Source: Lentisphaeria bacterium
GTDB taxonomy: Bacteria > Verrucomicrobiota > Lentisphaeria > Victivallales > Victivallaceae
Length of the DNA stretch: 41,146 nt
Direction of reading: 5' to 3'
Assembly (NCBI GenBank): GCA_017504585.1
Contig: JAFVQX010000001.1
Location: 1-41,146, forward strand
The notes beneath the pieces are model-generated. The model had not been told where the DNA came from and did not search any database. It was given only the letters and a program-made list of their open reading frames with translations. Of the stretch, positions 9,237 to 34,989 are shown piece after piece (positions within the stretch are counted from its first letter, which is position 1; the number at the start of each line of letters is the position of its first letter). A program made the position numbers and the translations under genes.

Positions 9237-10297
9237 AAAAGCCCCGTTTTTCGTTACTTTATTTTATCCTTACGCCAGTGATACTGCTGCCGGTGGCGGC
9301 GATGATTTTTCTGGTCATCCGGGGCAGCGAGGCCCAGCAGATCTACAACCGGGCGCTGAAAAATGCCAATGCCGGAAACTTTGCGGAGGCGGCAAAAGAT
9401 TTTGAACGCGCCGGCTTTCTGGGACACGGCGAAAGTTATTACAGTCTGGCGCGGATCTTTCAGAGCGGCAAACTGAAAGTGGATAATCAGCAGGAAGCTG
9501 TGTATGTGAATCTGGTGCGCGCTTCTCTCCACGGTTCGGTGGAAGCCGCTTACGAATTGGGCATGATCTCGCTTGATACCCCCGTTCCGGACTACGCCCA
9601 GGCGGCGCTCTACTTGCGCAACGCGGCTCTGGGCGGCCATGCTCTGGCACAATACGAATTGGGCAAGCTCTACGAGCAGGGTCGGGGGGTGATCAAAAGC
9701 GAAGTGCTTGCCGGAGAGTTTTACCGCAAAGCCGCCGGTCAGAATTGTCTGGAAGCTCAAACCGCGCTGGGGATGCTGCTTCTGACCCGGGCTGCGACTC
9801 CTGACGAACTGCTTAAAGCCGAAAAGCTCCTGCAAGCTGCCGCCGCCAGAAAACACGCCCGGGCGTTCACCGCGCTGGGGGTGATCTACGAAAAACTTTC
9901 TGCCGACAGCGACGAAGCTCTCGCCAAGGCGGGGATCTACTACCGCAAAGCCGCCGAAATGCGCGATCCCGAAGGTTTGGTAAACTACGGCGACTGGCTG
10001 ATGCGCCGCGACCGTACTGCCGAAGCGCTTGCCAACTACCGTTGTGCGGCAGATGAGCTGGACTTTGCGCCGGCGCAGCACCGCATGGGGGTATACTTTT
10101 TCAAGCTGCCCGAGCCGGATTACGGACTTTCGCGCAAATATTTTGAACGCGCCGCCCAAAAAGGTTACGCTGCCAGCTGGCGAAATCTGGGCATAATGGC
10201 TGAACTCGGTCACGGCTGTCCGCCGGATGCCGCACGCGCCGCCAAATGCTACAAAATGGCAGAAGATCTGAATGGAACAGTCAGCGGAAAACGCTGA
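9233..10297 (+). CDS. Membrane-anchored Sel1/TPR-repeat protein
   Basis: A 354-residue protein with one N-terminal membrane segment (about 8-30, LLYFILTPVILLPVAAMIFL) and no clear cleavage site, so it is probably anchored with the repeats outside the cytoplasm. Residues 33-350 are a run of Sel1-like helical repeats recognisable by A-x2-Y-x-LG-x2-Y/E-x-G and YRKAA blocks, for instance near 135-155, 160-180 and 225-245. Sel1 repeats are protein-interaction scaffolds; the partner is unknown. The ATG overlaps the phosphatase stop by four bases. A nine-pair hairpin spans its stop codon. Confidence 0.85.
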   Translation: MKKPRFSLLYFILTPVILLPVAAMIFLVIRGSEAQQIYNRALKNANAGNFAEAAKDFERAGFLGHGESYYSLARIFQSGKLKVDNQQEAVYVNLVRASLHGSVEAAYELGMISLDTPVPDYAQAALYLRNAALGGHALAQYELGKLYEQGRGVIKSEVLAGEFYRKAAGQNCLEAQTALGMLLLTRAATPDELLKAEKLLQAAAARKHARAFTALGVIYEKLSADSDEALAKAGIYYRKAAEMRDPEGLVNYGDWLMRRDRTAEALANYRCAADELDFAPAQHRMGVYFFKLPEPDYGLSRKYFERAAQKGYAASWRNLGIMAELGHGCPPDAARAAKCYKMAEDLNGTVSGKR

Positions 10298-10300
10298 CTG
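10278..10300 (+). terminator. Hairpin across the Sel1-gene stop codon
   Basis: CAGTCAGCG (10278-10286), loop GAAAA, CGCTGACTG (10292-10300) form a perfect nine-pair stem that includes the stop codon. Only a weak T-rich stretch follows, so termination is possible but not certain. The downstream gene converges from the other strand. Confidence 0.45.
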
Positions 10301-10385
10301 CGTTAAGTCTTTCTGACAGCCGGGCGCAGCAAAACCGGATGTATGCGGCGCCCAACCCCCGCCGGGGGAGCTTCAGCTGCCGGAT

Positions 10386-11138
10386 TTATCTGCCGGATTC
10401 TTCCATAGCTTCCAGCAGATCCATGGTTTTCCGGGCGAAGACCCCCGCTTTGATCCAGGGCAGGTTTTCGTCGGGCACCGGCAGCTCCAGCAAGCGTGCC
10501 AGATCCAGACCGATGACGGCGTTGCCGTCGGGATTCAGATGCAGACTGTCCCGCAGCAGCAGCCGGAAGGCTTTGATATCGTACTTGCGCAGCCGTTCCC
10601 AGCGTTTGAAGTTGTCGTTGAGATACTCTCCGGCAACTTCCCGGATTATTTCAATATAAGGCTCATAATTTGCCGCCCAATCCGGCCGGGTTTCCATAAG
10701 TTTTTCTTTATCGCAGGAGTAATAGGTCTGGAAAAGCACATCGCCGCCCAGATCATTGACCCGTTTCCGCAACTCAATAAGATTGTTGCGGTATTCATCT
10801 TTGCTGACATTCCGGTTGGGGTTGGCATCGTTGATCCCGGCTGTCAGGATCAACAGATCGGGCTTGAACGGTGCCACATCCCGGTCAAAACGATTCAGGA
10901 GTTCGGCGGTGGTGTTGTTGCTGGTGCCCGCATTCAGACAAAGTGCGGGGTTATCCACCGAACTGCGGTCATCGGTCCAGCGGCGGTATTTGTGCATAAA
11001 GCCGATATTTACATAGTCAAACCAGTGCGCTCCCACCATAAAGTGTTCGGTATTGGAGCTGCCCAGAGCCAATACATGGACATTTTTGCCCGCTTCGATC
11101 CGCTCAAAGATCCGGAGCTTTTCAGTTAATTTGCTCAT
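10386..11138 (-). CDS. SGNH/GDSL-family hydrolase (probable carbohydrate esterase)
   Basis: A 250-residue SGNH hydrolase with all expected blocks: block I VLALGSSNTE with nucleophile S27 (a GSSN variant of GDSL), an Asn/Gly block near NAGTSNNTTAELL (69-81), block III GIND (101-104), and block V DSLHLNPDG with D197 and H200. There is no signal peptide, so it acts in the cytoplasm. The ATG overlaps the upstream isomerase stop by four bases, making it the last gene of a four-gene operon. Many SGNH enzymes deacetylate sugars, and with two deacetylases in the same operon, removal of O-acetyl groups from an imported sugar is the likely role. That substrate is inferred. Confidence 0.82.
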   Translation of the reverse strand: MSKLTEKLRIFERIEAGKNVHVLALGSSNTEHFMVGAHWFDYVNIGFMHKYRRWTDDRSSVDNPALCLNAGTSNNTTAELLNRFDRDVAPFKPDLLILTAGINDANPNRNVSKDEYRNNLIELRKRVNDLGGDVLFQTYYSCDKEKLMETRPDWAANYEPYIEIIREVAGEYLNDNFKRWERLRKYDIKAFRLLLRDSLHLNPDGNAVIGLDLARLLELPVPDENLPWIKAGVFARKTMDLLEAMEESGR

Positions 11139-12616
11139 AATTTCACCACTTCGATCCGCATAAGTTCCGCTGTTCTTTCCAATGCTGCCGTGCAGTCGCC
11201 GTGGACCGCAATGGCGTGGTGTGCCACACCGACAGAGATCAGCTCTTCCAAATACTGTTTGACCGGTTTTTCCACCCGCACCATGGCATGGAGTTCGTTG
11301 CAGGGCAAAGTGGGGAATTCAAAACTTTCGCCCTTGCTTATAAGCATACGGTAAGTTTCGCCGCAGTTGAGCACATGGCCGAAAGTCACGGTGCCGGGTT
11401 TCATTATCAATTCATAGTTGAGTCCGCCGCCTTTGAAGCCCCATTCTTCCGGCGAACCGGTAAGGGTTATGGCGTCGTCGGAAGCGGCAAGGTCGGGCGT
11501 GCCGATGCCGTGGCCCAGCAGGAAGAGGGCATTGTTCTTTTCGTCAAACTGCCCCCACTCTGCCTGAAAGGGGGTGTTGCCGGTAAAATCTTTCATCAGA
11601 TCCATCATCACCAGACCGCCCACATCGCCTTCGCATGCCACCGGGAACTTGTCGTGTTCCATCAAAAGCGACGCGCCCATACGGGCGGGGGCGCCGGTCA
11701 TCTTTTCGATGTAATGCTGACCGAGGAAGCAGAGGCCGTCCAGATTGAACTTTTTATACAATGCGCGCATGGCAAGACCCAGCTTGACCGATTTGACCAC
11801 ATCGTCTTTATCCACATTGCGGCTCTTGAAGCGCTTGAGCAGTGCTTCGGAAACTTCTTCGGCCTCGCTTTCGCTGACCTTTCTCCACAAATCGATCAGG
11901 TGTTCAGCCTGAATAGTCATGATTTCCGGCCCCAGAAAACCTTTCACCTTGGCACGGTCGAATTCCAGATCATACATGCCCCGGAAAACATGCCCCACGA
12001 TGCCGTAGGTGGAAAGGGCAAGGCGTTTGGCGGCGTGGAGAGCTTTGACTTCCCGGGCGATTTTGGCGTAAGAGGCCATATCGCTGATTTCGCCCACCAC
12101 GGTTTTGTAGTCCAGCTTCATTTTGTGGAATGATCCGGAGAGCTGGGTTATGGCGATCAACGCCGAGTTCCGCATGGTGGCTATGTAGTTGTCTTTGGGA
12201 TTCACATCGCACCCGGTCTGGGTGTTGAACAGTATGACTTGGGGCCGGGCGGCACAACGGTTGATGGCGTGCATGGTTATAAAGTCCGGCAGATAAGTAC
12301 CGGCGATCACCACCAACACGTCGATTTCGGCATTGCGGAACGCCATACCCGCTTCTTCGGCACGGTCAAGGGTATCGACCATGCCGGGGTAGGTAACTAT
12401 GCAATCGCTCAACATCGATTTCAGCCGTTCAGCGGCACCGTTGAGGTCGCTTGCCACCTGATCTTCCAGAGCCGGATACATGCGCCAATATTCAAAGTAG
12501 CCCAACGCCAGCAAGCCGACTTTGGCTTTGCTGTGGATAAGGGGTTTGGTCAGAACATCACCGAAAACACCGGCATCTTCGGCATCAAAACTGGTTATCT
12601 GAACTTTCTTATTCAT
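11135..12616 (-). CDS. L-fucose/L-arabinose isomerase-family protein
   Basis: A 493-residue protein of the fucose/arabinose isomerase superfamily, the usual length for AraA- and FucI-like enzymes. The N-terminal part has the Rossmann-like layout of these enzymes (KVGLLALGYFEYWRMYP at about 32-48; VLVVIAGTYLPDF at about 102-114). The middle contains a conserved acidic block (PVACEGDVGGLVMMDLM), and the C-terminal third the barrel region (GTVTFGHVLNCGETYRML). These enzymes interconvert aldoses and ketoses with a divalent metal. Members outside the core clades act on varied sugars, so the exact substrate is open. The start codon overlaps the deacetylase stop by one base (TAATG) and the stop overlaps the esterase start, indicating tight coupling. 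Confidence 0.82.
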   Translation of the reverse strand: MNKKVQITSFDAEDAGVFGDVLTKPLIHSKAKVGLLALGYFEYWRMYPALEDQVASDLNGAAERLKSMLSDCIVTYPGMVDTLDRAEEAGMAFRNAEIDVLVVIAGTYLPDFITMHAINRCAARPQVILFNTQTGCDVNPKDNYIATMRNSALIAITQLSGSFHKMKLDYKTVVGEISDMASYAKIAREVKALHAAKRLALSTYGIVGHVFRGMYDLEFDRAKVKGFLGPEIMTIQAEHLIDLWRKVSESEAEEVSEALLKRFKSRNVDKDDVVKSVKLGLAMRALYKKFNLDGLCFLGQHYIEKMTGAPARMGASLLMEHDKFPVACEGDVGGLVMMDLMKDFTGNTPFQAEWGQFDEKNNALFLLGHGIGTPDLAASDDAITLTGSPEEWGFKGGGLNYELIMKPGTVTFGHVLNCGETYRMLISKGESFEFPTLPCNELHAMVRVEKPVKQYLEELISVGVAHHAIAVHGDCTAALERTAELMRIEVVKL

Positions 12617-13503
12617 TACAAATTCACCTTTTCTGCTAAAGTTTGGAGGTTGACAAATTCTATATTCAGATCGGCGGCAGCAGCCATTTCTCTGGCTTTG
12701 GCATAAAGTTCGTGCAAAAAGCGCAAGCCTTCGCCCTCATGAACCGGATCGATATGGCAAACTGTTACAAAGGGTATATCCTGATCCATACAGCTCTGCA
12801 AGTCCTGAATTGCCATTTCCATAGTTTCAGCATAGCGTTCGCAAGTCAGATACCATGTGTAATCGCAAGTTAACGGCAGCATAAGGTTATAGCCTTTGGC
12901 GCGCAAACTTTCGTAACGCTCCCGGGTGATCTTCCGGGGCGGCACATCCATTTTGTCCAACAGATAATCCCAGCCGGTTTCCTGCATACAGTTGCTGCTG
13001 TCGTAGGTGTAGCCTTCGGCGGCAAGGGCCTGAAACATGCCCGGACTTTCCTGCAAAGCCGGGGAGCGGAAGCCTTTGACTTCAAAACCGAATGCCTTTT
13101 CCAATATTTCTCTGCCCTGACGGAGCCGGGCACGGCAATTTTCCACACAATGATCGGCAGCCAGTGCGGCGGCATTTTCCCGGGCATAACGCTTGTTTTC
13201 CACTTCGTGGGGCAGATCCAGCACCATATCCGGCGGCACGCCCAATTCAAACCGGTTGTGGCGCAAACCGTGCTGACCAAAGTCGAACCCCAGCTTTTTG
13301 GCGTTTTTGATGGTGGGCAAATAGCGGTCGCTCAAGGTGTAAAACGGTTGATCGCTCTCTTCGTCGATGGGCACTACAAAGAATGTTGCCGGAACTTTTT
13401 CTGCCTGAAAAAACTCAATAAGGTGTTCAAAGTTTTCCGGCTTGCTCCAGCCTTTCAGAGCCACATCGTCCACACTCATAGCAAAGTAAAAGGGCTTGCT
13501 CAT
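12616..13503 (-). CDS. Polysaccharide deacetylase (NodB-homology) family protein
   Basis: A 295-residue NodB-fold protein. Motif 1 is FAMSVDD with metal/catalytic D12-D13, motif 2 is GQHGLRHN with H78 and H82, and motif 3 is GFRSPAL. Downstream VCHIDPVHEGEG could supply the late His motif. There is no signal peptide, unlike cell-wall chitin or peptidoglycan deacetylases, so a soluble sugar or oligosaccharide inside the cell is the more likely substrate. It starts two bases after the PIG-L gene stop and its stop overlaps the isomerase start. With a second, unrelated deacetylase beside it, the operon appears built for an N-acetylated compound. Confidence 0.83.
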   Translation of the reverse strand: MSKPFYFAMSVDDVALKGWSKPENFEHLIEFFQAEKVPATFFVVPIDEESDQPFYTLSDRYLPTIKNAKKLGFDFGQHGLRHNRFELGVPPDMVLDLPHEVENKRYARENAAALAADHCVENCRARLRQGREILEKAFGFEVKGFRSPALQESPGMFQALAAEGYTYDSSNCMQETGWDYLLDKMDVPPRKITRERYESLRAKGYNLMLPLTCDYTWYLTCERYAETMEMAIQDLQSCMDQDIPFVTVCHIDPVHEGEGLRFLHELYAKAREMAAAADLNIEFVNLQTLAEKVNL

Positions 13504-13505
13504 TT

Positions 13506-14198
13506 TCAGAAGATCTCCTTTATGTCTTTAATATTTTCCATAAGGTAAAAGCTCTGGCGGAAGGGTTCGCCATATTTGAAACCCGCACGGCTGCCGTGGT
13601 AGCGGGCGCGGGCCTCCAGAGCGTTATCCAGTTCGCCCAGATGGTCGTGGGCATCTTCAAAACACATCCACGCTGCCATTTTATCTTCAAAAGTATCGGT
13701 TATATCGACTATATGACTGGGTTCCGGCAGGGGGTCGTTGACCTCAAAGTGAAAATACTTCTTTGCCCGGTGGGGTTCCACGCCAAAATCGGCACTGCAC
13801 GCCCATGCCGCCTGATTCCACGCATCGCGGCTGATGGTCGCCATGCCGTGGTGCTGAAAATATTCGTTCCAATAATGGGCAAAGATCACATCCGGCTTGT
13901 GCTGACGGATCACCCGGATGCACTGCTGATAAAACTCCCGGTTGGCATCCACGCCGAAGTCCGGCACATCGTAGCACTCAAAACTTGCCACGCCCAAACG
14001 CTCGTGGGCCTTGATGGCGTCGCGGGTGAAACGCTTGACCGCATTGGCAGAGTCGCCGGGGTGGGTGTAGGCTTCGTCGCCGTTGCCGAAACAGAATACA
14101 TCCACCTGAATACCGGCTTTGACCATTTTGGCGATAGTGCCGCCCATGGCTATGACCGAGTCATCCAGATGGGCGCCGAGAACTAATGCTTTTTTCAT
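13506..14198 (-). CDS. PIG-L/LmbE-family N-deacetylase
   Basis: A 230-residue LmbE-like zinc deacetylase. The zinc-binding signature appears as GAHLDDSVIAMGG (H10, D12, D13), a variant of AHPDDE in which Ser follows the second Asp. A later zinc ligand is probably among the histidines of YWNEYFQHHGMAT (about 117-129). Family members remove acetyl groups from GlcNAc-containing substrates such as GlcNAc-PI, GlcNAc-inositol or diacetylchitobiose. It is the first gene of the operon, 41 bases downstream of the predicted start of transcription, and divergent from the PocR-AraC gene at 14365, its likely regulator. Confidence 0.88.
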   Translation of the reverse strand: MKKALVLGAHLDDSVIAMGGTIAKMVKAGIQVDVFCFGNGDEAYTHPGDSANAVKRFTRDAIKAHERLGVASFECYDVPDFGVDANREFYQQCIRVIRQHKPDVIFAHYWNEYFQHHGMATISRDAWNQAAWACSADFGVEPHRAKKYFHFEVNDPLPEPSHIVDITDTFEDKMAAWMCFEDAHDHLGELDNALEARARYHGSRAGFKYGEPFRQSFYLMENIKDIKEIF

Positions 14199-14245
14199 AA
14201 ATCAGAACCTTACATTAAAAGTTGGTGAAAAATCTTTCTGAAATT

Positions 14246-14251
14246 ATTATA
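14246..14251 (-). promoter_or_regulatory. -10 box of the deacetylase-isomerase operon
   Basis: A consensus TATAAT lies on the minus strand at 14251-14246 with no good -35 hexamer 16-18 bases upstream. That is the pattern expected of an activator-dependent promoter. The divergent AraC-family gene makes such control likely. Confidence 0.45.
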
Positions 14252-14302
14252 CAACAATCTGCACTTAATACTACCTTGATATTGCTTTTTTTTATTCCAA
14301 AA

Positions 14303-14331
14303 TTGCTTTTTTCGTCATAAAGAGCTATATT
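14303..14331 (+). promoter_or_regulatory. Predicted promoter of the divergent PocR-AraC gene
   Basis: TTGCTT (14303-14308), a 17-base spacer and TATATT (14326-14331), followed by GGAG at 14356-14359 and the ATG at 14365. It lies about 50 bases from the opposing -10 box, so one bound regulator could affect both directions. Confidence 0.5.
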
Positions 14332-14364
14332 ATCTTTGGAAATACAACCTTTTACGGAGCAAAA

Positions 14365-15246
14365 ATGGATAAATTCAACGATCTGGCACGGAAGAAACTT
14401 CTGTATAACTACCACGATGCTTTTTACAAGCTTTTTCATCTGCCGCTGGACTTTATGGCTCCGGACAACACCACCTTTACCATTTGCGGCAAAAGCCATT
14501 GCAACGCCCTGTGCGCCAGGATCATGGAAAACGAACATGGTGCCGCCCGCTGTGCCGCACTGGTCCCCCGGCGGGTCGCCGAAGCAAAACGCACCGGCAA
14601 ACCGGTGATAAAGGCTTGCCATGCAGGATTTTACGATGCCTTGATCCCGATTTTTGTCAATAAAGAGTACATGGGCAGTTTGTGTGTGGGGCAGTTTCTG
14701 AAAAAGCCGCCGGATGCCGAAACGCTGAAAAAAATCCGCCAGGAGCTGGATTTTCTGAAACTATCGCCCGGCGAGTTGGAAGAGTATTACTCCAAAACCC
14801 GCATTTTAAGCGAAGAAGAGTCCGAAGGCCTCATAGAATTAGTGCAAATGCTGGGCGAATATATTTGCGAAAGTTACAGCAAACTGCGATTTTTTGAATC
14901 CATGCGCTCCAGCGACCCGATCCGGGCGGCGGAGCAATATATCAAAAGCCACTATGCCAAAAATCTTTCCGTAGATGGTATAGCCCGTTCAGTGGGGATG
15001 AGCAAGAGCTATTTTCTGCACAAATTCACCGAGCAGACCGGCAGCTCCCCCATAGCTTATTTGAACAGTTACCGCTTGCTGCAAGCTTCTGAAATGCTCA
15101 AAGGCACCAATGTACCCATTTCGGAAATAGCGTATACATGCGGATTTCACACGCTGTCGCACTTCAATAAACAATTCAAAAAGCAGTTCCAGCTCTCCCC
15201 CCGGATTTACCGTAAACACGCCTCCGCCGGAGCCGGTTCGGCATAA
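14365..15246 (+). CDS. PocR-sensor AraC-family regulator
   Basis: A 293-residue regulator with an N-terminal PocR-type sensor (about 10-160) and a C-terminal AraC DNA-binding domain (about 187-290, ending SHFNKQFKKQFQLSPRIYRKH). The sensor has the cysteine pattern of the family: C41, C46, C50, C63 and C85 in the ACHAGFYDALIPI block. PocR domains bind small hydrocarbon-type ligands such as 1,2-propanediol in the cobalamin/propanediol regulator; here the ligand is unknown. It is transcribed away from the deacetylase-isomerase operon, the standard arrangement for a local activator. Related regulators lie at 20887-21765 and 24186-25091. Confidence 0.9.
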   Translation: MDKFNDLARKKLLYNYHDAFYKLFHLPLDFMAPDNTTFTICGKSHCNALCARIMENEHGAARCAALVPRRVAEAKRTGKPVIKACHAGFYDALIPIFVNKEYMGSLCVGQFLKKPPDAETLKKIRQELDFLKLSPGELEEYYSKTRILSEEESEGLIELVQMLGEYICESYSKLRFFESMRSSDPIRAAEQYIKSHYAKNLSVDGIARSVGMSKSYFLHKFTEQTGSSPIAYLNSYRLLQASEMLKGTNVPISEIAYTCGFHTLSHFNKQFKKQFQLSPRIYRKHASAGAGSA

Positions 15247-15380
15247 AGTTTTCCGGCAGCGACCCGGGCGATTTTTTGCCGGTCGTCCAGCGGGGTGGCG
15301 GTTTTTGTAAAAAATCGGCAAACAGCATAATTGTATAAATCCTTTTGCGTAAAGTGCATTGCTGCCGGAGAAAATTTGTT

Positions 15381-15410
15381 GTAAATTATTGTTGGTTGAC
15401 AATAATTTAC
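15381..15410 (+). promoter_or_regulatory. 12-bp inverted repeat before the first pseudopilin gene
   Basis: GTAAATTATTGT (15381-15392), six bases, then ACAATAATTTAC (15399-15410): perfect arms ending 18 bases before the ATG. It could be an operator or an RNA hairpin next to the AGAAAGG ribosome binding site (15414-15420). Poor -35/-10 candidates overlap it, so it may control transcription directly. Confidence 0.45.
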
Positions 15411-15428
15411 TCAAGAAAGGCAATACTT

Positions 15429-16130
15429 ATGAAAAAGAGATTTACGCTGATTGAACTTTTGGTCGTAATTGCTATTATTGCCATTCTGGCGGCTATGCTG
15501 CTGCCGGCTCTTTCCGCCTCGCGGGAATCAGCGAAAGGCAGTAAATGCACCGGCAATCTGCGGCAGATCGGGGTTTACAGTTTTATGTACAGCGATGATC
15601 ACGACGGCTATTTTCCGCCCTCCATTTATGCCCGGCAATTTTATAATGCATTGCAGCCCTATATAACCGGTGATATAAAATGGAATAAAAACACTCATAA
15701 TACCATATATATGTGCCCAAGTGATGCCGAACGCTCCAGCGACAGCAAAATAGAAAATGCTGTATACAGTTATGGCGAAAATACCTACACTTGCTGCGAC
15801 CGTTTTGTTCTCCGTGCAGACCGCCCCAGCGTGGTGCGTTTTATGACCAAATTCAGTGACCTTGTTGATGCTTCCAAAACTCTCTTTTTTGCCGACAGTT
15901 CGCGTTACGGAGAGGCTGTGACCAAAGAAAAAGATATAAACGGGTATGTATGCTTGGACTCCGGCAAATACCCCTTTGACACCTCAAAACCCGTTGGTTA
16001 CGGTATGAGTTTCCGCCACAACAATACTGCCAATGTGCTGATGTGCGACGGTCACGTTGAACCGGGGACATTCAAACAATATGAAGGCTCAAACGGAAAC
16101 GCCTACCTTTTTCTGGGCGGGGATTTCTGA
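15429..16130 (+). CDS. Pseudopilin-like secreted protein with H-x9-DG C-terminus
   Basis: A 233-residue protein beginning [19 protein letters not shown], a class III (prepilin-type) signal and hydrophobic helix, with the [14 protein letters not shown] block usual in Lentisphaerota and Planctomycetota. The end carries the H-x9-DG motif ([12 protein letters not shown]) of prepilin-processing-associated proteins. The residue before FTLIE is Arg, not the Gly preferred by prepilin peptidase. ATG at 15429 follows AGAAAGG; a longer frame from 15345 would place 28 residues before the leader and is rejected. The globular part contains [13 protein letters not shown] and two paired aromatic segments. 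Its role is unknown: minor pseudopilin or surface protein. The next gene is a paralogue. Confidence 0.88.
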
Positions 16131-16213
16131 TCCGGAAGGTAGTCGCACAAGAAGTTTATTTGTATCGTGGTTCACTGAAAATCGGTTTAACAAAGAGAGG
16201 AAAGGAACACTTT

Positions 16214-16876
16214 ATGAAGAAATGTTTTACCTTGATTGAACTGCTGGTTGTAATTGCCATTATTGCTATTTTAGCGGCGATGCTGCTGCCCGCCCTTTCT
16301 GCTGCCCGGGAAAGTGCCAGAAGCAGCAAATGCACATCCAATCTCCGGCAGATCGGTATATATTGTCTGATGTACAGCAACGATTGGGAAGATCACTTTC
16401 CGCCATCCATACAAGATCTGAACTTTTACCGGGTGATCCACCGGTATATATCAAAAGATGAAGAGTGGAATGAAAACAAAGCCAACAGTATTTTCACCTG
16501 CCCCAGCGATGCCGACCGTATTCAGGAAAACAATCAGCACACATTTTTCAGTTATGGTCAGAATTTATATACTGCTCACGATGAACAACCTACCGGTCGC
16601 CACTCTTCAGTATTGTTCGGTATAAAGTTTTCTACACTCTTTGATGCTTCCAGATCATTATTTTTTGCCGACAGCTTCAAAAGCGGCAACTCGTATGTGC
16701 GGTTTGACTCCGGCTCCTGGCCGATGAAAGCGACGGCTGTCAACTCCAAAGGAATGGATTTCCGTCATAACAGCCTTGCCAATGTCCTGATGTGCGACGG
16801 TCATGTGGAAACAGGTACGGTAAAACAATACGAAATAAATGGAACAAAGTACCTTTTTAAGGGCGGCAATTTTTAA
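16214..16876 (+). CDS. Pseudopilin-like secreted protein, tandem paralogue
   Basis: A 220-residue protein with [19 protein letters not shown] at its start and the motif [12 protein letters not shown] at its end. It follows the preceding gene (15429-16130) closely and resembles it throughout: [37 protein letters not shown] and a shared end [12 protein letters not shown], so the pair arose by tandem duplication. Cys, not Gly, precedes FTLIE. ATG at 16214 follows AGGAAAGGA. The FAD oxidoreductase starts nine bases after its stop, so the three genes form an operon. Function is unknown. Confidence 0.88.
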
Positions 16877-16885
16877 CCACTTTGA

Positions 16886-18115
16886 ATGATTTCTATGAAG
16901 ATGTATGATTGTATTGTTGCCGGTGCCGGGGTCAGCGGTTTTGCGGCGGCTCTTGCCGCCCGCCGTGCCGGAGCCAAAGTGCTTTTGCTGGATAAACTTT
17001 CTTCGGTTGGCGGTAGTGCCGTTTACGCTCTTACTGCATTTTTAAGCGGCTGGCCGCTGCCTAAACGGGCGGGCGGCATTGCCGATGAATTGCTGCAGCA
17101 ATTGGAAGAACACCATGGTCTGGTCTGGCGGGGCAATGCGGTTTTTGATGAAAATATCATGCAGCTCGTTATGCTGGATATGCTGCGCGATGCCGGGGTG
17201 GAAACGCTTTTCAATGCCATTGTGACCCAAGTTGAGTCTTGCGGCAGAGTGATAAAAAGTGTAACCGTGCAGTGCGGTTCGGAAGCGATCACACTGAATG
17301 CCAAAAACTTTGTGGATGCTACCGGCGACGCCAGTTTTTCCGTACTTGCCGGAGCCGATGTAATTACGCCTGATTCGGAATTGAGCATGACCAAAACCTT
17401 GATGTTCAAGGTGCATAATGTTAAAAATTTTGACAAAGCAGCTATTTGCCGCAAATTCCGGGAAAAGCTCCCAACCAAAAAGTTCCCGGTAGCTATTCAG
17501 GATCGCTTTATGGGTACCAATATGATGCGGGACGATGTGGTGATCCTCAACCTGACCGCAGTTGCCGGCGATGCCGCCGACCCGGTGCAATACAACGCCA
17601 TGCACGAAGAGCTTTTGCGTCAGATACCGGAGGTCGTAAATTGGCTGAAAAATGAGTTTGAAGAATTTGCCGATTGCTCCATAGCCCAGATCGCCCCCAT
17701 GATGGGGGTGCGTTATACCCGCAGTATCGTCAGCTGCCGTCAGATGACCATGCATGATGTATACAACCCCGAACCGCCGGAAGAGGTGGTGGCACTTTGC
17801 GGCAGTTACATCGGCGGGCATTATGTAAAATGTTTCAACTCGCCCTGGAGCAGCCGCGTTACCGGCAAACTGGCAGTACCTTACGGAGCGATCCGCAGCA
17901 GGAGTTTCGATAATCTGCTGGCAGCCGGGCGTATAATCGGCGTGGAACCGGAGCTGATAAGTGCCGTCCGGCTGAATGTAAGCTGTATAGCCTCCGGGCA
18001 GGCCGCCGGATGTGCCGCCGCGCTGGATATACCAGATTATGAGGTTTTGCGCAAAGAATTATTGCGGCAGAACTGTCTGCTTGCAAGAGATGATTCCCCA
18101 AGTACTGAAAAGTAA
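16886..18115 (+). CDS. FAD-dependent oxidoreductase (FAD_oxidored type)
   Basis: A 409-residue flavoprotein. The N-terminal dinucleotide-binding motif is DCIVAGAGVSGFAAALAARR with the acidic end of beta-2 at LLLDK. Other family blocks are VDATGDA (about 144-150), GVRYTRSI and the late AAGRIIGVE. The fold matches FAD-dependent oxidoreductases common in Planctomycetota and Lentisphaerota glycan clusters; the electron donor is unknown. There is no export signal, so it is cytoplasmic. It starts nine bases after the second pseudopilin. The ATG at 16886 is used, but ATGs at 16895 and 16901 are alternatives. A clear full-length paralogue lies at 31804-32988, also beside a pseudopilin. Confidence 0.85.
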   Translation: MISMKMYDCIVAGAGVSGFAAALAARRAGAKVLLLDKLSSVGGSAVYALTAFLSGWPLPKRAGGIADELLQQLEEHHGLVWRGNAVFDENIMQLVMLDMLRDAGVETLFNAIVTQVESCGRVIKSVTVQCGSEAITLNAKNFVDATGDASFSVLAGADVITPDSELSMTKTLMFKVHNVKNFDKAAICRKFREKLPTKKFPVAIQDRFMGTNMMRDDVVILNLTAVAGDAADPVQYNAMHEELLRQIPEVVNWLKNEFEEFADCSIAQIAPMMGVRYTRSIVSCRQMTMHDVYNPEPPEEVVALCGSYIGGHYVKCFNSPWSSRVTGKLAVPYGAIRSRSFDNLLAAGRIIGVEPELISAVRLNVSCIASGQAAGCAAALDIPDYEVLRKELLRQNCLLARDDSPSTEK

Positions 18116-18116
18116 A

Positions 18117-18274
18117 GGCTCTGTTCCCAATACGGGTAGGTCAGTAAAAATCTTTATGATCAACTTTTGTATTGGAACTTTTTTAAAACTTGAATGGCAT
18201 TTACCTATTTGCAGAGCAAATAGATAAATGCCGGGAAAAGGTTTGGAAAAAGGGGGTCCCTTATTGGGAACAGA
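18117..18274 (+). repeat. 155-bp MITE-like element, family 1, complete copy
   Basis: Perfect 13-bp terminal inverted repeats, TCTGTTCCCAATA (18120-18132) and its complement (18262-18274), continue inward with GGG/CCC after one mismatch. Inside is a long hairpin: arms 18196-18212 and 18216-18232, 17 bases each, one C/A mismatch, three-base loop. A second, inverted copy lacking one end is at 25225-25360. There is no coding capacity, which fits a non-autonomous element. Confidence 0.75.
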
Positions 18275-18288
18275 ACAAAAGTAAAAAA

Positions 18289-18316
18289 TTGAAATTTTCA
18301 AGATAGGTTTTATAGT
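18289..18316 (+). promoter_or_regulatory. Predicted promoter of the beta-helix gene
   Basis: TTGAAA (18289-18294), a 16-base spacer and TATAGT (18311-18316). A GTGAGGTG ribosome binding site (18328-18335) and ATG at 18342 follow. It lies immediately right of the repeat element, so the beta-helix gene can be transcribed apart from the pseudopilin-FAD operon. Confidence 0.5.
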
Positions 18317-18341
18317 ATAATATAGCTGTGAGGTGTAAAAA

Positions 18342-20867
18342 ATGAGATTGCTGATCGTTGGATTGTTGTGTTGGGCGTTTATGCTCAACGGTGCAGAATT
18401 AAGCAAATATAAAACCGGTAAAAACAGTTGGGGCGATGCCCTTGCTCAAGCTGTCGCCCAGGAGCGGGTAGTCTATATACCCGGCGGGGTCTATGAGCTT
18501 GATACCCCCCTTGTAATAACCAGAGATGTCGCTTTGATCCTGCAAGATGGTGCAACCCTTGCAACCAATAAAAGTCAGCTTTTCATCCTTAAAAAAGGCA
18601 AACTTGTCATTGAAGGCAGAGGTATACCGGCAATACTGCGTTCATCGGCGGCACCGGAGCAGAAACCTGCCGGAGAAAACCGGGTGTCGATCATTGATCT
18701 GAATGGTGTATCTGTCGGGGCAAACCCGTCGCTGGAAGTAAAAAATGTTGAGTTTCATGCTTACCACGGCATTGACGGCTTCCGCAGACTTCCGACAGTA
18801 GATGTAAGCGGCAAAAGACAGCCTTCATCCGACCGGATCGAAAGCATCGTTATCGAAAACTGCCGTTTTTTCACCCCCTCATACGGTATCGGCATACGCT
18901 GTAAAGAACTGGGTTCGGCAAGGGTGGAAAATTGTCTGTTTGAGGGCGTTGGCTACCCCATATTTCTTTCGTCGCCCATCCACGGCGGGGCGATCGTGCG
19001 GGGCAACATACTCCGGAAGTTCGGGCTTACAGGTATCCAGATCGGCAAAGGCGGGCAGATCTCCGAGGGATGCACTACTCACCTTTCCAGCGCCATCGTT
19101 CACGACAACCAGCTTTTGACCGGCGGCTTGGGCAATACAGAAAAACACTCCTACACCCACGGCATTTTGATTTACGGACACAATGTTTCCGTGCAGGGCA
19201 ATGTGGTGCGCGATGTAAACCGCGGCGAACCCATACCCGGCAAAGATATCGGCCGCCAGTTCCGCACCAAAGATGGCAAAGTATTGAACCGGAACTGGAT
19301 CTTTGAAAACGGTAAACGCCGTCGTCTGGCAGGTGCCGCGATCTATCTTAAAGCCAACCGTGCCGTGGTGCAGGGCAATATTTGCACCAATTCCGGCTGG
19401 CGGAGCGTTATTGAAATCAAAACCGGCGGCAAAGAGCATTTTGTCAGCGTGGTTAATAATATCGTAGACGGCAGCGCCCTCAATACCGACGACAGCTTTG
19501 GCTTTGAGTGCAACAGCGGCCGCTCGCTGTGGGCAAACAATATGGTTTTCAATATGCCCCATCAGGCATTTGTGGTACGCAGCGGTTACGAAAACACCTT
19601 TATCAACAATGTTATAGTAAATTCTCCGGTGGGGTTTGCCCTTTCCGGCAATGCTCCCGGGTATCAGGAGTTGATTTCCGGCAACCGCTTTATCAATGTG
19701 GAACACCCCGTGGCGGTGGATGGAGTCAAAAAGAGTCCGGGCATGGCGCCGGATGTGCTGACTCTGCCCCCCGCTCAACTGGCGGAAAATCAGGAGTTGC
19801 CGGAACCGGGAGAAGAGATCGCCGGACGCATTTTTGTTAAAGGTACTAAATTTTACTGCTGCGTAAAAATGGGCAATGAGTATGTTTATATGGAGCTTGC
19901 CGGTAAAGTCATACCCAATAAAAAATACAAAGTCGTCGGCAAAGAACTGCTCTTCAACGCCGATCAATCCGGCAGGGAAAAAAGCGATAATGCCCTGCTG
20001 AATGATCCCCTGCACCCCGGCTGGCAATCGACATTCTATTCGGCACGGGAAGAAAAACTTTATGCTCAAGGCAATGCCACTTTTGATACAAAAAATTTCA
20101 AAACCGGCAATCGCTCGCTGAAAATCTGTATGACTCAAAAGCCCGGCAGCTGGAAGTTGCGGCAGAATGTAACACTCAAACCCGGTGCCCGCTACCGCGC
20201 GACTGCCGTAGTCAAAGGCGAAGAACCCTTGAATTTGCGTCTGGAAGTCCGGCCCAATGTGGGCAGAAGTTTTATCAAACGGGCAGCGGATACCCAAGAG
20301 TGGCAGACTGTAACAACAGATTTCACCAACCCCAAGGGGAACACCCGGGCGGTCTTCTCGGTGTGGAGTTCCAAAACCAACATGCACAAAAACGCCTGGG
20401 TGGATTCGGTTTCGCTCAAAGAAATCGTTGATGAAGCTGTTGTTGCCCGGCAGGAGGCCGCCGCCGCCCGGAAAACAGTGGGCAAGGAACTGGCGGGCAG
20501 CAAGTGGAACTCGCCCCAAGGCGTTGAACAGCTTCAGGCAGACAAAACTGTAACATTCAAGCGATCTGCCGGTAACGGCAATGCACTTATTTCGCAAAAA
20601 GTCAAACTGCAAAAGGGCAGATCCTACCGGGCGGTCATGCAGATAAAAAGCAATATTCCCGGCAGCCGTTATTCGGTACATGGCAGATTTGACAACGGTC
20701 GGCTGCCGCTGACTTTGACAGGAGAAAAAGATGGAATAATTTTTCTGCAAGGCGATTTTACGGAAGTTGAACCGAAAAAATACAGCCAGATCAATTTATG
20801 GATAAACAATTTTGCCGCCGGAGAAGAAATAACGATCTGCGATTTTTCGCTGAAAGAACTGGAATAA
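18342..20867 (+). CDS. Secreted right-handed beta-helix protein with CBM-like tail
   Basis: An 841-residue exported protein. Residues 1-18 form a signal peptide (LLIVGLLCWAFMLNG, cleavage near AEL). Residues 25 to about 470 form a parallel beta-helix of the pectate-lyase / glycosyl hydrolase 28 type, seen in stacked repeats such as SIVIENCRFF, SARVENCLFEGVG, AIVRGNILRKFG and VSVQGNVVRDVN. About 560-700 (GNRSLKICMTQKPGSWKLRQ) resembles a CBM4/9-like beta-sandwich, and a second similar module runs 720-841. Such proteins are polysaccharide lyases or hydrolases acting outside the cytoplasm; I cannot identify the catalytic residues, so the activity is open. It is followed after 19 bases by a PocR-AraC regulator. 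Confidence 0.8.
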   Translation: MRLLIVGLLCWAFMLNGAELSKYKTGKNSWGDALAQAVAQERVVYIPGGVYELDTPLVITRDVALILQDGATLATNKSQLFILKKGKLVIEGRGIPAILRSSAAPEQKPAGENRVSIIDLNGVSVGANPSLEVKNVEFHAYHGIDGFRRLPTVDVSGKRQPSSDRIESIVIENCRFFTPSYGIGIRCKELGSARVENCLFEGVGYPIFLSSPIHGGAIVRGNILRKFGLTGIQIGKGGQISEGCTTHLSSAIVHDNQLLTGGLGNTEKHSYTHGILIYGHNVSVQGNVVRDVNRGEPIPGKDIGRQFRTKDGKVLNRNWIFENGKRRRLAGAAIYLKANRAVVQGNICTNSGWRSVIEIKTGGKEHFVSVVNNIVDGSALNTDDSFGFECNSGRSLWANNMVFNMPHQAFVVRSGYENTFINNVIVNSPVGFALSGNAPGYQELISGNRFINVEHPVAVDGVKKSPGMAPDVLTLPPAQLAENQELPEPGEEIAGRIFVKGTKFYCCVKMGNEYVYMELAGKVIPNKKYKVVGKELLFNADQSGREKSDNALLNDPLHPGWQSTFYSAREEKLYAQGNATFDTKNFKTGNRSLKICMTQKPGSWKLRQNVTLKPGARYRATAVVKGEEPLNLRLEVRPNVGRSFIKRAADTQEWQTVTTDFTNPKGNTRAVFSVWSSKTNMHKNAWVDSVSLKEIVDEAVVARQEAAAARKTVGKELAGSKWNSPQGVEQLQADKTVTFKRSAGNGNALISQKVKLQKGRSYRAVMQIKSNIPGSRYSVHGRFDNGRLPLTLTGEKDGIIFLQGDFTEVEPKKYSQINLWINNFAAGEEITICDFSLKELE

Positions 20868-20886: not shown

Positions 20887-21765
20887 ATGGAATCGACATT
20901 TACCCCTGTAAATCTGCCCGGATATAATAGCCGGGAGTATTTTGTGCAAATCTGGAACTATCTGGAAGATTTGCATAAAATCCACATAACCATCCACGAT
21001 CACTCCGGCAGTCTGCTGCTTTCCGACGGCAAATTATTGCGGCTGCATGGCAATATCCACCGCAGCGGATACTGCAGTTATTGCCGGGAAAAATTCCACC
21101 GGCATTGCATCCAGCATTGCGCCAAAGAAGCCATGCAGAAAGCCTCCGAAGCCGAGGGCCCCATGCTTTACCGGTGTTACGCCGGGGTGGTGGAAGTGGT
21201 GATGCCGCTTTTCTGGCAAAATGTGCATGTGGCAACGATTTTCGGCGGCTCCTTCCGGGATGCGGACTTTGCAGTGCCCGACTCCTGGGATAATCAGCGG
21301 AAAGCGTTATACAACGATCTGCCGGTGTGGTACCGCAGCAAATACCCGGTCATTGTGCAAGTGCTGGAGCTGTTGGGGTCAGCGGCGCTGGTCTGGGCGG
21401 ATAAAGAGCGGAACACCCTGAAAGATGAAAACAGCCGTCGGCAGATCATCGAAGATTTTTTCCGGAAAAAGCTGACATCCCAGGATTGCACGCTGGAGCT
21501 GTTGGCAGAAAAATTGAATTTATCAACTTCCCGCACCAGTCATGTTTTGCAGGAGGAATTCCACAAAAGTTTCAGTAAACTGTTAATGGAAGCCCGGGTC
21601 CAGCGGATCTGCGATCTGCTGGAAAATACCTATCTGCCTTTGCGGGAAATCGCCCGGCAGACCGGCATGAGCAACGAATATTACTTAAATCGTATTTTCC
21701 GGCGGAAAATGGGCATCCCTCCGGGGAAATACCGCAACTGCCCGCTGAAAAAAGAAGAATGCTGA
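20887..21765 (+). CDS. PocR-sensor AraC-family regulator
   Basis: A 292-residue regulator built like the one at 24186-25091, with which it shares ITIHDHSGSLLLSDGK (or close variants) and GNIHR near residues 34-59. Sensor cysteines are C63, C66, C74, C78 and C97 (YRCYAGVVEVVMPL). The AraC double helix-turn-helix covers about 190-288, including LREIARQTGMSNEYYLNRIF. It lies 19 bases after the beta-helix gene and probably shares its transcript, so it may autoregulate that unit. It converges on the Gfo/Idh/MocA gene at 21829-22938. The ligand is unknown. Confidence 0.88.
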   Translation: MESTFTPVNLPGYNSREYFVQIWNYLEDLHKIHITIHDHSGSLLLSDGKLLRLHGNIHRSGYCSYCREKFHRHCIQHCAKEAMQKASEAEGPMLYRCYAGVVEVVMPLFWQNVHVATIFGGSFRDADFAVPDSWDNQRKALYNDLPVWYRSKYPVIVQVLELLGSAALVWADKERNTLKDENSRRQIIEDFFRKKLTSQDCTLELLAEKLNLSTSRTSHVLQEEFHKSFSKLLMEARVQRICDLLENTYLPLREIARQTGMSNEYYLNRIFRRKMGIPPGKYRNCPLKKEEC

Positions 21766-23196: not shown

Positions 23197-24189
23197 TCAG
23201 GACAATAATTTAATTTCCTGATTTAAGTCTGCTGACTTCTGGGCGGTCAATGCTGCCCGGGTAACTTGCAGAGTCAAAGCCGTTTCGGCTTGGGCGGCGG
23301 CCGGATCACTCGCCAACGCCCGCACCATTTCGCCAAAACAGCCCACCGGCGGCGTTTTCAGCTCGGGATAGCTTGTGCAGTCATCGGTCATCAATTCCAC
23401 TTTGCCTTGAGCTGCTTCGACAATGCCCTTTTCGCCCACCGCCCGCAGCCGGTCGTCGCCATGAGTGGGGGCGCCCGATGGACGCATAAAATCGATATCC
23501 GCCGAAGCGATAGCTCCGGAATCCAGCTCAAAGATACAATGAGCGGCGGTTTCCAGCGTGCCGCGGCTCTTTTCGCCATAATGCTGCAACGCCCTTACCT
23601 TGCGGAACTTGCCGGCATTGCAGCAAGCGATCCAGTCCACGGCGTGGATACCCACCCACGGGATAGTGCCGCCATAGGTACTGCGGCAAAAATAGTATTC
23701 CGGGCGGTTGCCGATCTTGTAGGATTTCCGGGTATAAATAAGTTTGACTTTACCGATCATTCCCGAATTTATGATTTCCAAAGCGGTGTAAAAGGGCGGC
23801 TCAAAACGAATGCCCATCATGCCGTAAAGTACGCCGTTGTACTTTTTTACGGCAGCTTCCAAATCATCCAGTCCCTCCAGCGTGATGGCGGCGGGTTTTT
23901 CAGTAAAAACCGCTATGTTGCGCTCAATGGCATATTGGCACATAAGGGCGCGTTCTTCAAAAGGTCCGCCGATCACCACAATATCCGGTCTGACTTTATC
24001 CAGCATGGTCTGGTGATCGCCGAAAAGCTCCGGTTCCGGGAGCTTGAGTTCCTTCAAAGCCCGAATTGTCCGCTCCGGGGGGCTACCCCCGGCGGAAGCG
24101 GCGGCAACTACCTGACATTGGGGGAGTTTGGGCAGATCTTCAAAAAGATAATTCAAGTGGCCCAAATTGCCGGTTACTGCAATTTTCAT
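23197..24189 (-). CDS. Gfo/Idh/MocA-family oxidoreductase
   Basis: A 330-residue member of the family, shorter than the common 350-400. The N-terminal nucleotide loop is the variant VTGNLGHLNYLFED rather than GxGxxG. E97-K98-P99 is present in VFTEKPAAIT, and the segment GGTIPWVGIHAVDWIAC carries the His-containing active-site region of these dehydrogenases. The ATG overlaps the stop of the PocR-AraC gene at 24186-25091 by four bases, so regulator and enzyme are translated together. That pairing suggests the regulator's ligand is related to the enzyme's sugar substrate. Binding of NAD(P) through the altered loop is inferred. Confidence 0.83.
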   Translation of the reverse strand: MKIAVTGNLGHLNYLFEDLPKLPQCQVVAAASAGGSPPERTIRALKELKLPEPELFGDHQTMLDKVRPDIVVIGGPFEERALMCQYAIERNIAVFTEKPAAITLEGLDDLEAAVKKYNGVLYGMMGIRFEPPFYTALEIINSGMIGKVKLIYTRKSYKIGNRPEYYFCRSTYGGTIPWVGIHAVDWIACCNAGKFRKVRALQHYGEKSRGTLETAAHCIFELDSGAIASADIDFMRPSGAPTHGDDRLRAVGEKGIVEAAQGKVELMTDDCTSYPELKTPPVGCFGEMVRALASDPAAAQAETALTLQVTRAALTAQKSADLNQEIKLLS

Positions 24190-25091
24190 ATATTCTTTAT
24201 ATCCTCTTTTTCAACTGTTTCTGCCTGTCGGGCGGCGTTGCGGTAACTGCCCGGTGTCATACCGGTCGCCCGGCGGAAAACTCTGCTTAAATAATATTCG
24301 TTACTGAAACCGCAAAGCTGAGCTATCTTCCCCAGCGTCATTTCAGTTGAACTCAACAGCTGACAGACCCGTTCTATCCTTACTTTATTGAGCAATTCGC
24401 TGAAACTCTGATTGAATTCCTGCCGCAGAATGTGGCTGGTGCGGGATTGGGAGAGTTCCAGCTTGTCTGCCAGATTTTTCAAACCCAGATCCGGCGTGGA
24501 CAAATTGCAGCGGAAAAACTCCTCGATCACCGCCTTGCGCCCCCGCAAAGCATTGCCGGAGCTGAACCGTTCATTTTCTGCCAACGCCAGCAGTGCTGCG
24601 CCCAGCATTTCCAATTCCCGCAGATACAACGCCACATTATTGGGCCGCCAGACCGGCAGCGCGTTATAGAGCTGACAAAATTTTTTAGGACATGCCGCCG
24701 GAAGTTTCAGCTCCGGATCCCGGAATGTTCCGGCAAAGATCGTTGCCAGATGTTTGCCGCGCCGCCGCAAAGGCAGCACCAGTTCCATCGCTCCGGCATG
24801 GCAGCGGCTGATAAAGGGCTTGCCGCTGCGGGCGGCTTCGGCGGCGATCTGCCAGCGGCAATGGTCGACGCACTGGTTGCCGTGATACTCCCGGTTGTAA
24901 GTGCAGAAGTCGCAGCGGTGGATATTGCCCTGCGGCCGGAGCATCCTGCCATCGGAAAGCAGCAGACTGCCGGTGTGGTCGTGGATCGTTATGTAAAGAG
25001 CATACTGCTGTTCCACAGCCTGCCACAACTCTATAAAATAGTCCCGGTCATGGGTTATCTGCCGGGGTACAGGAATAAAAACCGACTCCAT
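24186..25091 (-). CDS. PocR-sensor AraC-family regulator
   Basis: A 301-residue PocR-AraC regulator, closest in the window to the protein at 20887-21765 (shared ITIHDHTGSLLLSDGR, GNIHRC, HILRQEFNQSFSELL-type and GFSNEYYLSRVFRR segments). Sensor cysteines are C60, C63, C74, C78 and C97 in the SRCHAGAMELVLPL block. The AraC DNA-binding region covers about 190-290. It is the first gene of a two-gene unit with the Gfo/Idh/MocA oxidoreductase, overlapping by four bases. Upstream lie a hairpin (25141-25179) and a MITE-like repeat. No strong Shine-Dalgarno is seen before the ATG at 25091. Confidence 0.88.
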   Translation of the reverse strand: MESVFIPVPRQITHDRDYFIELWQAVEQQYALYITIHDHTGSLLLSDGRMLRPQGNIHRCDFCTYNREYHGNQCVDHCRWQIAAEAARSGKPFISRCHAGAMELVLPLRRRGKHLATIFAGTFRDPELKLPAACPKKFCQLYNALPVWRPNNVALYLRELEMLGAALLALAENERFSSGNALRGRKAVIEEFFRCNLSTPDLGLKNLADKLELSQSRTSHILRQEFNQSFSELLNKVRIERVCQLLSSTEMTLGKIAQLCGFSNEYYLSRVFRRATGMTPGSYRNAARQAETVEKEDIKNI

Positions 25092-29549: not shown

Positions 29550-29562
29550 TCTACTTATTTTA

Positions 29563-29669
29563 TTACCATGTTTGCAATGTATAACCGGTGGGGAGTTTGT
29601 CTTCGGTGATCTTGTTGAGGCTTTCGACATGGCTGTCAGCAGAGCAATCGTAAAAAATGTTTTTTTCAT
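29563..29669 (-). pseudogene. Pseudopilin gene remnant: first and last codons only
   Basis: From ATG at 29669 the first codons read MKKTFFTI, the start of a pseudopilin. A few bases later, in another frame, the sequence reads [17 protein letters not shown] and ends TGYTLQTW with TAA at 29563-29565. That matches the end of the intact pseudopilin at 31049-31777 ([17 protein letters not shown], ending SDYTLIAW) almost residue for residue. The 107-base remnant therefore keeps about 8 N-terminal and 25 C-terminal codons; some 200 codons between them are gone and the frame is lost. It lies just before the ceramidase-like gene. Confidence 0.82.
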
Positions 29670-31048: not shown

Positions 31049-31777
31049 TTACCATGCGATCAGGGTATAATCGCTGGGCAGTTTATCTTCGGTAATAGTT
31101 GCAAGGCTTTCCACATGGCTGTCGGCATAAATAACATTGCCCATATTGCCATGGTGTTTACCCAACCGGGCATTGGCAGTGCCGGCCTTGAAGACTTTCT
31201 GCGTATTAGTATCAAGCTGGTCGATCATTACTACCTCGTTGGAAGGATTGTAGAGTTTGCCCAGAGTCATGGGCTGAAGTTTTTTGGTCCCCATTATATC
31301 GGTATTGACAATAAAACTGTACCAGCGGTTGCCATAGCCGCTGCTGGCTATAATAGTATCGGAACGGCTGGGGCAGCCGCGGCCGCCCAAATCTCTTGCC
31401 CAACTGGTATTGCTCACTTCGCTAAAATAGAGTTTGTGGATCGGCTGCCCCGGATAATGCCAGTTGTTATCAGTGCCGGCATAGTAAGCAGGCATCAGAC
31501 GATCCTGAAAATCGTTGCTGTAAAATTGATGCACCATGCCGATCTGCCGCATGTTAGATAAACAGTGCGACGACCGTGCCCGCTCCCGCGCCGCCGAAAG
31601 TGCCGGCAAAAGCATTGCTGCCAAAATCGCAATAATGGCAATCACTACGAGGAGTTCAATAAGGGTAAAGCATGCTTTACCCTGCCCATGGGCAGGTGGG
31701 CTGCAAGGAGTTTTCCCGCTGCGAGATCCTTTTACCAACAGCTCGATCAAAGTGAATTTTTTTGCCTCTTTTTTCAT
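31049..31777 (-). CDS. Pseudopilin-like protein with duplicated FTLIELLV leader
   Basis: A 242-residue pseudopilin-type protein whose leader is doubled: FTLIELLV occurs at residues 8-15 and again at 37-44. Between them is a 21-residue hydrophilic insert ([18 protein letters not shown] plus three residues). Only the second copy continues into the membrane helix [12 protein letters not shown]. The C-terminus has an H-x9-DS variant ([12 protein letters not shown]) of the H-x9-DG motif. The ATG at 31777 follows GAAGGA, six bases away. It is between an FAD oxidoreductase (26 bases upstream) and PatB/MalY. If translation began later, at no obvious site, the first copy would be dispensable. Whether the peptidase processes either leader is unknown. 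Confidence 0.85.
31663..31696. repeat. Twin perfect palindromes inside the pseudopilin leader
   Basis: GGGTAAAGCATGCTTTACCC (31663-31682) and CCTGCCCATGGGCAGG (31681-31696) are two perfect palindromes overlapping by two bases. They lie within the in-frame insert that separates the two FTLIELLV copies, and encode its PAHGQGKAC part on the minus strand. No other copy is seen in the window. Confidence 0.85.
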
Positions 31778-34940: not shown

Positions 34941-34989
34941 ATCACAAGCAGTTTATTGTGCAGATTTAAAAAAGTTTTCTTCTGCCGCC

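Follow-up and report, generated by a model that had tools for sequence, protein, structure and literature searches.

A conserved deacetylase-isomerase operon with a divergent PocR-AraC regulator in Lentisphaeria, a candidate locus for cytoplasmic glycan utilization

In the archaeal chitin route of Thermococcus and Pyrococcus, a diacetylchitobiose deacetylase (Dac) of the PIG-L family acts first and is followed by the exo-beta-D-glucosaminidase GlmA, which shows the domain order of GH42 enzymes (PMC6566704). In the present study, a four-gene operon encoding a relative of Dac was analyzed in a Lentisphaeria bacterium (assembly GCA_017504585.1, contig JAFVQX010000001.1, positions 1 to 41,146 of the forward strand; this whole stretch of 41,146 nucleotides is referred to as the window). 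The gene products are a PIG-L/LmbE-type N-deacetylase, a NodB-type deacetylase, an isomerase of the AraA/FucI superfamily and an SGNH/GDSL esterase, and a regulator combining a PocR sensor with an AraC-type domain (PocR-AraC) is encoded divergently. The enzyme superfamilies are all known and, in kind, this is most likely an inducible glycan-utilization locus; the operon may well contribute the deacetylation and isomerization half of an inducible unit that breaks down acetylated glycan fragments, probably containing amino sugars, in the cytoplasm. A preliminary description had proposed an undescribed pathway and, accordingly, neither the combination nor several of its families were found described in the open-licence literature searched.

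Reading frames, spacing and Pfam domains confirm the tight minus-strand operon and its divergent regulator gene (Table 1) that had been deduced before. Proceeding from PIG-L via NodB and isomerase to SGNH, the genes are separated by a gap of 2 bases and overlap by 1 and 4 bases, respectively, all starting with ATG, while 166 bp lie between the divergent starts of the PIG-L and regulator genes. Operon and neighbouring regulator are a real gene unit, and the arrangement is more than chance, since neighbours and orientation are kept at isomerase identities of 55-78%, catalytic residues are invariant and the promoter is conserved. The cytoplasmic location claimed previously is borne out by the N-termini of the enzymes, where no hydrophobic export segment is visible on inspection, without a signal-peptide program having been run. 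Also in agreement with the preliminary description, kinase, aldolase and transporter are missing from the four-gene operon, and no linked kinase or aldolase was present among the neighbours scanned around the cluster. In the regulator, the PocR and HTH_18 domains both score above the Pfam cut-offs; assignment to the propanediol/cobalamin regulator PocR itself (equivalog NF047788) was rejected at 95.3 bits versus a cut-off of 500. Two more PocR-AraC regulators are encoded in the window at 20887-21765 and 24186-25091, the second adjoining genes for Gfo/Idh/MocA oxidoreductases, and each of these paralogues may control its own local catabolic operon.

The PIG-L protein matches PF02585 with 70 bits (cut-off 28.2) and possesses the HxDD motif as well as the distal metal-binding histidine, with H10, D12, D13 and H116 being invariant in 18 homologues. 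Its best relatives in the PDB are diacetylchitobiose deacetylases (6.6e-17), while assignment to bacillithiol deacetylase BshB1 was dismissed (111.1 bits versus an NCBIfam equivalog cut-off of 182.5). The NodB-type protein (PF01522, 36.7 bits versus 23.1) bears the DD and HxxxH metal motifs, and D12, D13, H78, H82, R146 and H250 are invariant in 17 homologues; searching the PDB with its sequence gave no match. In the SGNH protein (PF13472, 59 bits versus 32.9), the Ser, Gly, Asn and Asp/His blocks were recognized by inspection. For the isomerase, the Pfam match to Fucose_iso_C (4e-6, 27 bits) stays just under the cut-off of 29.3 bits, but a profile built from 29 sequences matches L-arabinose isomerase AraA at 1e-14, and the AlphaFold2 model (pLDDT 91) resembles E. 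coli AraA (4f2d, TM-score 0.79) and FucI (TM-score 0.74). Residues E329, E353, H369 and H466/H467 align with the metal ligands of E. coli AraA and are invariant in 29 of 29 homologues; the family has an invariant signature of its own, GYFEYWRMY. Given this invariance of active-site residues among homologues, the PIG-L, NodB and isomerase proteins look catalytically competent. The isomerase is not AraA proper (29.9 bits versus an equivalog cut-off of 622) and, although sulfoquinovose isomerase SftI (NF048012) is its best match among curated families (9e-20), it also falls far below that cut-off (70.8 versus 700 bits). Judged by sequence, its family is uncharacterised, while the metal site is intact.

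Scanning about 85,000 genomes for the isomerase resulted in 43 loci, 21 of which, mostly from Lentisphaeria and with isomerase identities of 55-78%, constitute the Lentisphaeria-type set. Here, genes for PIG-L (19/21), NodB (17/21), a PocR-AraC homologue (13/21) and SGNH (5/21) are found near the isomerase gene, the deacetylase genes in the same orientation as the latter, and several of the absences fall at contig ends. Hence, conserved gene order, which had been set beforehand as a check, is found for the two deacetylases, albeit with shuffling in some relatives (L032, L034, L040, and L045), and the core consists of PIG-L, NodB and isomerase. The SGNH esterase, previously counted as a full member, is optional. 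Within a sample of 388 genomes of the phylum, 13 carry close isomerase orthologues (at least 58% identity); 12 of them possess a single NodB orthologue, which is missing from three of three congeners without the isomerase. Due to this co-occurrence, the cluster is an accessory unit, passed on jointly. The variable SGNH gene and the shuffled orders would also be compatible with co-regulated genes catalyzing separate reactions, for example, in detoxifying several acetylated sugars, instead of consecutive steps. This is, however, quite unlikely considering that the genes for PIG-L, NodB and isomerase remain neighbours at isomerase identities as low as 55%, including loci with scrambled order, and that the presence of the NodB orthologue follows that of the isomerase from genome to genome. 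A typical Lentisphaeria-like cluster was also found on a contig labelled Candidatus Uhrbacteria (L047, LBWG01000008.1), which is probably mis-binned or otherwise indicative of transfer.

The 21-bp direct-repeat period of the tandem half-sites upstream of the operon (Table 1) corresponds to the kind of spacing known for AraC-family half-sites. In this genome, the tandem motif has a single match at up to three mismatches, and it recurs upstream of orthologous clusters in about ten relatives, including several loci outside the set used for defining the motif. Moreover, a TATAAT-like hexamer (0-1 mismatch), which was not used in the scan, follows 26-28 nt after 12 of 13 tandem sites. Weak sites (scores 18-21) lie in a range that is also reached by chance, the highest score from ten shuffles being 20.7 in one of them, and were accepted only for their position and the -10 element. 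The operon promoter combines a good -10 element with no clear -35 element; it was not listed in a scan with the sigma-70 consensus, in which promoter-like sites were no more common than in shuffled sequence. As tandem site and -10 element recur upstream in relatives and the site occurs once in the genome, the divergent PocR-AraC protein is a plausible local activator, predicted to act at this site, in line with the inducible-type local regulation postulated before. In L052, L062, and L046, the motif precedes other genes as well, pilin-like ones among them. Three pilin-like DUF1559/N-methylation proteins are encoded in the window (15345-16876 and 31049-31777), and proteins of the same kind recur near the cluster in relatives.

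Besides the deacetylases, Lentisphaeria-type loci carry genes for an M24/creatinase-like protein (16/21), a 124-amino-acid ASRT protein (PF07100; 13/21) and a protein of 650-700 amino acids without Pfam match (9/21). The predicted structure of the latter (pLDDT 87) consists of a TIM barrel plus extra domains and has GH42 enzymes as nearest neighbours (best E-value 8e-11, TM-score about 0.5), whereas no match was obtained to Pfam (E-values up to 0.1), to PDB sequences or to GH35 and GH42. Because its predicted fold is closest to GH42, this GH42-like protein can be regarded as a putative glycosidase, for which no export signal is evident. The M24 protein is similar to prolidases but, according to the alignment, the two aspartates that serve there as metal ligands are missing, as is also the case in creatinase. 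In the phylum sample, ASRT is encoded in 12 of 13 isomerase genomes versus 30 of 388 overall, and the GH42-like protein in 11 of 13 versus 22 of 388 (hypergeometric P about 1e-13, uncorrected for kinship). In the genome of the window itself, contigs C52 and C199 carry these partner genes at their ends; the two contigs seem to adjoin, as the M24 gene is split between them. There, a second PocR-AraC gene is divergent from a PTE gene, accompanied by CBM9-like, M24, ASRT and GH42-like genes; a similar partner operon of another genome (G058, L106) includes a GxDLY-type SGNH esterase. The second PocR operon has a different 21-bp repeat, CGCAGAATATGCGT, part of which is common to L106, and a binding site shared by both PocR operons of the genome was not detected, the first motif occurring only once. 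By their linkage with the isomerase cluster, the M24-like, ASRT, PTE and GH42-like proteins can be counted as missing members of one unit, and the four genes of the operon thus make up only part of the pathway.

Table 1. Features of the isomerase locus (window coordinates) and location of the partner operon.
Feature	Position	Strand	Support or remark
PIG-L/LmbE-type N-deacetylase, 230 aa	13506-14198	-	PF02585 3.6e-19
NodB-type/DUF2334 deacetylase, 295 aa	12616-13503	-	PF10096 5.8e-10, PF01522 4.8e-9
AraA/FucI-superfamily aldose-ketose isomerase, uncharacterised family, 493 aa	11135-12616	-	AraA profile match 1e-14 and model
SGNH/GDSL esterase, optional member, 250 aa	10386-11138	-	PF13472 1.2e-15
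Divergent PocR-sensor AraC-type regulator, 293 aa	14365-15246	+	PF10114 2.3e-27, PF12833 (HTH_18) 1.2e-23
Tandem half-sites AAAAAAGCAATTTT-N7-AAAAAAGCAATATC, 21-bp period	14278-14312	-	Predicted binding site of AraC-type regulator
Predicted -10 element TATAAT	14246-14251	-	26 nt downstream of tandem site
Second PocR-AraC operon	L105:8109-14256 and L104:~16500-19085		Contigs C52 and C199 of the same genome

A different version of the system was found in ten loci from Clostridia and Spirochaetes, where the isomerase is 44-48% identical and neither PIG-L nor NodB is encoded (0/10). Instead, the isomerase gene is accompanied by genes for two Amidohydro_2 proteins (10/10 and 8/10), PTE (6/10) and an SGNH protein of a different family (6/10), with M24, ASRT and GH42-like protein each present in 4/10. 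One of the amidohydrolases (c9) seems to be devoid of the usual HxH motif on inspection. Judged from the neighbours, this looks like non-orthologous replacement of the hydrolytic steps around a fixed isomerase. As a tentative wider interpretation, the loci might constitute an undescribed, patchily distributed catabolic system whose isomerase and cytoplasmic GH42-like glycosidase each represent a new family, and in which acyl groups are removed either by PIG-L and NodB (Lentisphaeria) or by two non-orthologous amidohydrolases (Clostridia and Spirochaetes), ASRT serves as sugar sensor and the M24 protein acts as an enzyme despite its lack of metal ligands. On the other hand, amidohydrolases and PTE enzymes of the clostridial type are also known from non-sugar pathways, and the PIG-L protein shows, besides its sub-threshold score to the BshB1 model, a weak PDB match to 4-oxalomesaconate hydratase (5e-10), so that a role in biosynthesis or salvage of small molecules, such as a bacillithiol-like glycoside, a glycolipid or an aromatic ring fission product, has to be considered. 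This is highly unlikely, as no bacillithiol or aromatic genes are present nearby and the partners comprise an aldose isomerase, ASRT, GH42-like, GH20 and GH123 proteins, some loci also having sugar-type ABC transporters on inspection.

With respect to the substrate, GH20-type genes lie next to or within the cluster in four loci (L033, L034, L038, and L054), L054 additionally having Amidohydro_1 (NagA-like) and Glucosamine_iso (NagB-like) genes, and GH123-type proteins are encoded near the cluster in four others (L036, L039, L044, and L046). GH20 and GH123 genes are also present in the genome of the window, at other sites. Together with the relationship to diacetylchitobiose deacetylases, these neighbours favour the amino-sugar theme of the previously suggested pathway for an acetylated amino-deoxy sugar. 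Its deoxy part, in contrast, is unsupported for the isomerase substrate, as 12 of 13 carrier genomes have a separate gene for canonical FucI and 12 of 13 have one for canonical RhaA, which also speaks against a simple L-fucose or L-rhamnose isomerase role. A unit for breakdown of a neutral, fucose- or rhamnose-like 6-deoxy sugar or its acetyl esters, with the hydrolases acting as O-deacetylases and the isomerase as a second deoxyhexose isomerase, is nevertheless suggested by FucI and AraA being the nearest solved folds, by a GH29 alpha-L-fucosidase gene inside the cluster of L042 and by distant homologues (35-38%) in Bacteroidota (L063, L064, L067, and L072), which on inspection adjoin alpha-L-rhamnosidase-like (GH78/GH106) and RhaT-like proteins. 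Besides the separate FucI and RhaA, this is rendered improbable by the affiliation of PIG-L to an N-deacetylase family and by the fact that neither GH29 nor rhamnosidase-like genes recur in Lentisphaeria loci. The same four Bacteroidota loci encode a second isomerase paralogue (about 20%) downstream, and these proteins are possibly alternative rhamnose-type isomerases.

Several points weigh against a unit for acetylated, amino-sugar-containing fragments as outlined above. An isomerase of the C1-C2 metal type requires a hydroxyl group at C2, so neither glucosamine nor galactosamine can be its substrate, and isomerization is not a simple sequel to deacetylation. With 2-amino sugars barred, the picture of a single substrate needs revision, and the isomerase must use a neutral partner sugar, a sugar with its amino group at C3, C4 or C6, or a sugar that has been deaminated before. 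Furthermore, neither deacetylase is present in the versions from Clostridia and Spirochaetes, and the TM-score of about 0.5 to GH42 enzymes denotes a likeness of fold only, the GH42-like protein having no sequence match to any glycosidase. Linkage to GH123 was downgraded from strong to weak evidence for N-acetylgalactosamine, since about half of the phylum sample (192 of 388 genomes) encodes GH123 and nearness to the cluster thus says little. Finally, enzyme activity is known for no member of the unit.

A catabolic sequence for acetylated glycan fragments can be proposed, in favour of which the GH20, GH123, GH29 and NagA/NagB-like neighbours in relatives also speak. The PocR domain would sense a metabolite of the imported glycan, and the AraC domain would bind to the 21-bp tandem site, observed as motif with defined geometry upstream of the promoter, and switch the operon on. 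Considering their families and active sites, the PIG-L and NodB enzymes may strip acyl groups, N-acetyl or similar ones, and O-acetyl groups may be removed by the SGNH enzyme in loci that encode it. Cleavage of the deacetylated oligosaccharide might be catalyzed by the GH42-like glycosidase that the partner operon encodes, analogous to GlmA acting after diacetylchitobiose deacetylase. The isomerase, according to fold and metal site of its model, could then convert a released aldose with free C2 hydroxyl to the ketose, further breakdown of which would be completed by kinase and aldolase enzymes encoded elsewhere. The sets of glycan-degrading genes in gut and rumen bacteria, Lentisphaeria among them, are large and poorly understood. 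Here, the unit provides a defined, conserved and testable set of uncharacterised proteins, comprising an isomerase family, an unannotated glycosidase family and an M24 homologue without aspartate ligands; its promoter and regulator are defined as well, and it links the sugar-binding ASRT protein to one pathway.

Apart from this unit, a weakly neutral/alkaline-ceramidase-like protein below the Pfam cut-off is encoded in the window at 27885-29669, adjoining an 823-amino-acid protein (25394-27865) without any Pfam match. The window (34987-35289 and about 10270-10309) shares a dispersed, internally repetitive intergenic element with further contigs of its genome (L104:6053-6397 and L104:13591-14380), the pieces being 75-97% identical.

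Compared with described systems, the PIG-L protein shares family and catalytic residues with BshB1 and other PIG-L enzymes, but no bsh genes were seen near the cluster. Likewise, in contrast to SftI, the neighbourhoods examined here contain no recognised sulfosugar genes. The Thermotoga TM1070-type sugar operons (PMC2739507) also combine an ASRT gene with a sugar isomerase gene, but include aldolase and kinase genes, whereas deacetylase, M24 and GH42-like genes and no linked kinase or aldolase are found here. The isomerase has the fold and the four metal ligands of the AraA/FucI superfamily, and is distinguished by an identity of only about 15%, its own signature and the additional presence of canonical FucI and RhaA. 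Membership in the archaeal Dac/GlmA system was rejected, as no GlmA (GH35) orthologue is recognisable by sequence, and the present system differs in having an isomerase, a second deacetylase, M24 and ASRT. What both have in common is a Dac-related PIG-L enzyme, here cytoplasmic, that is genomically linked to a predicted glycosidase of GH42-like fold.

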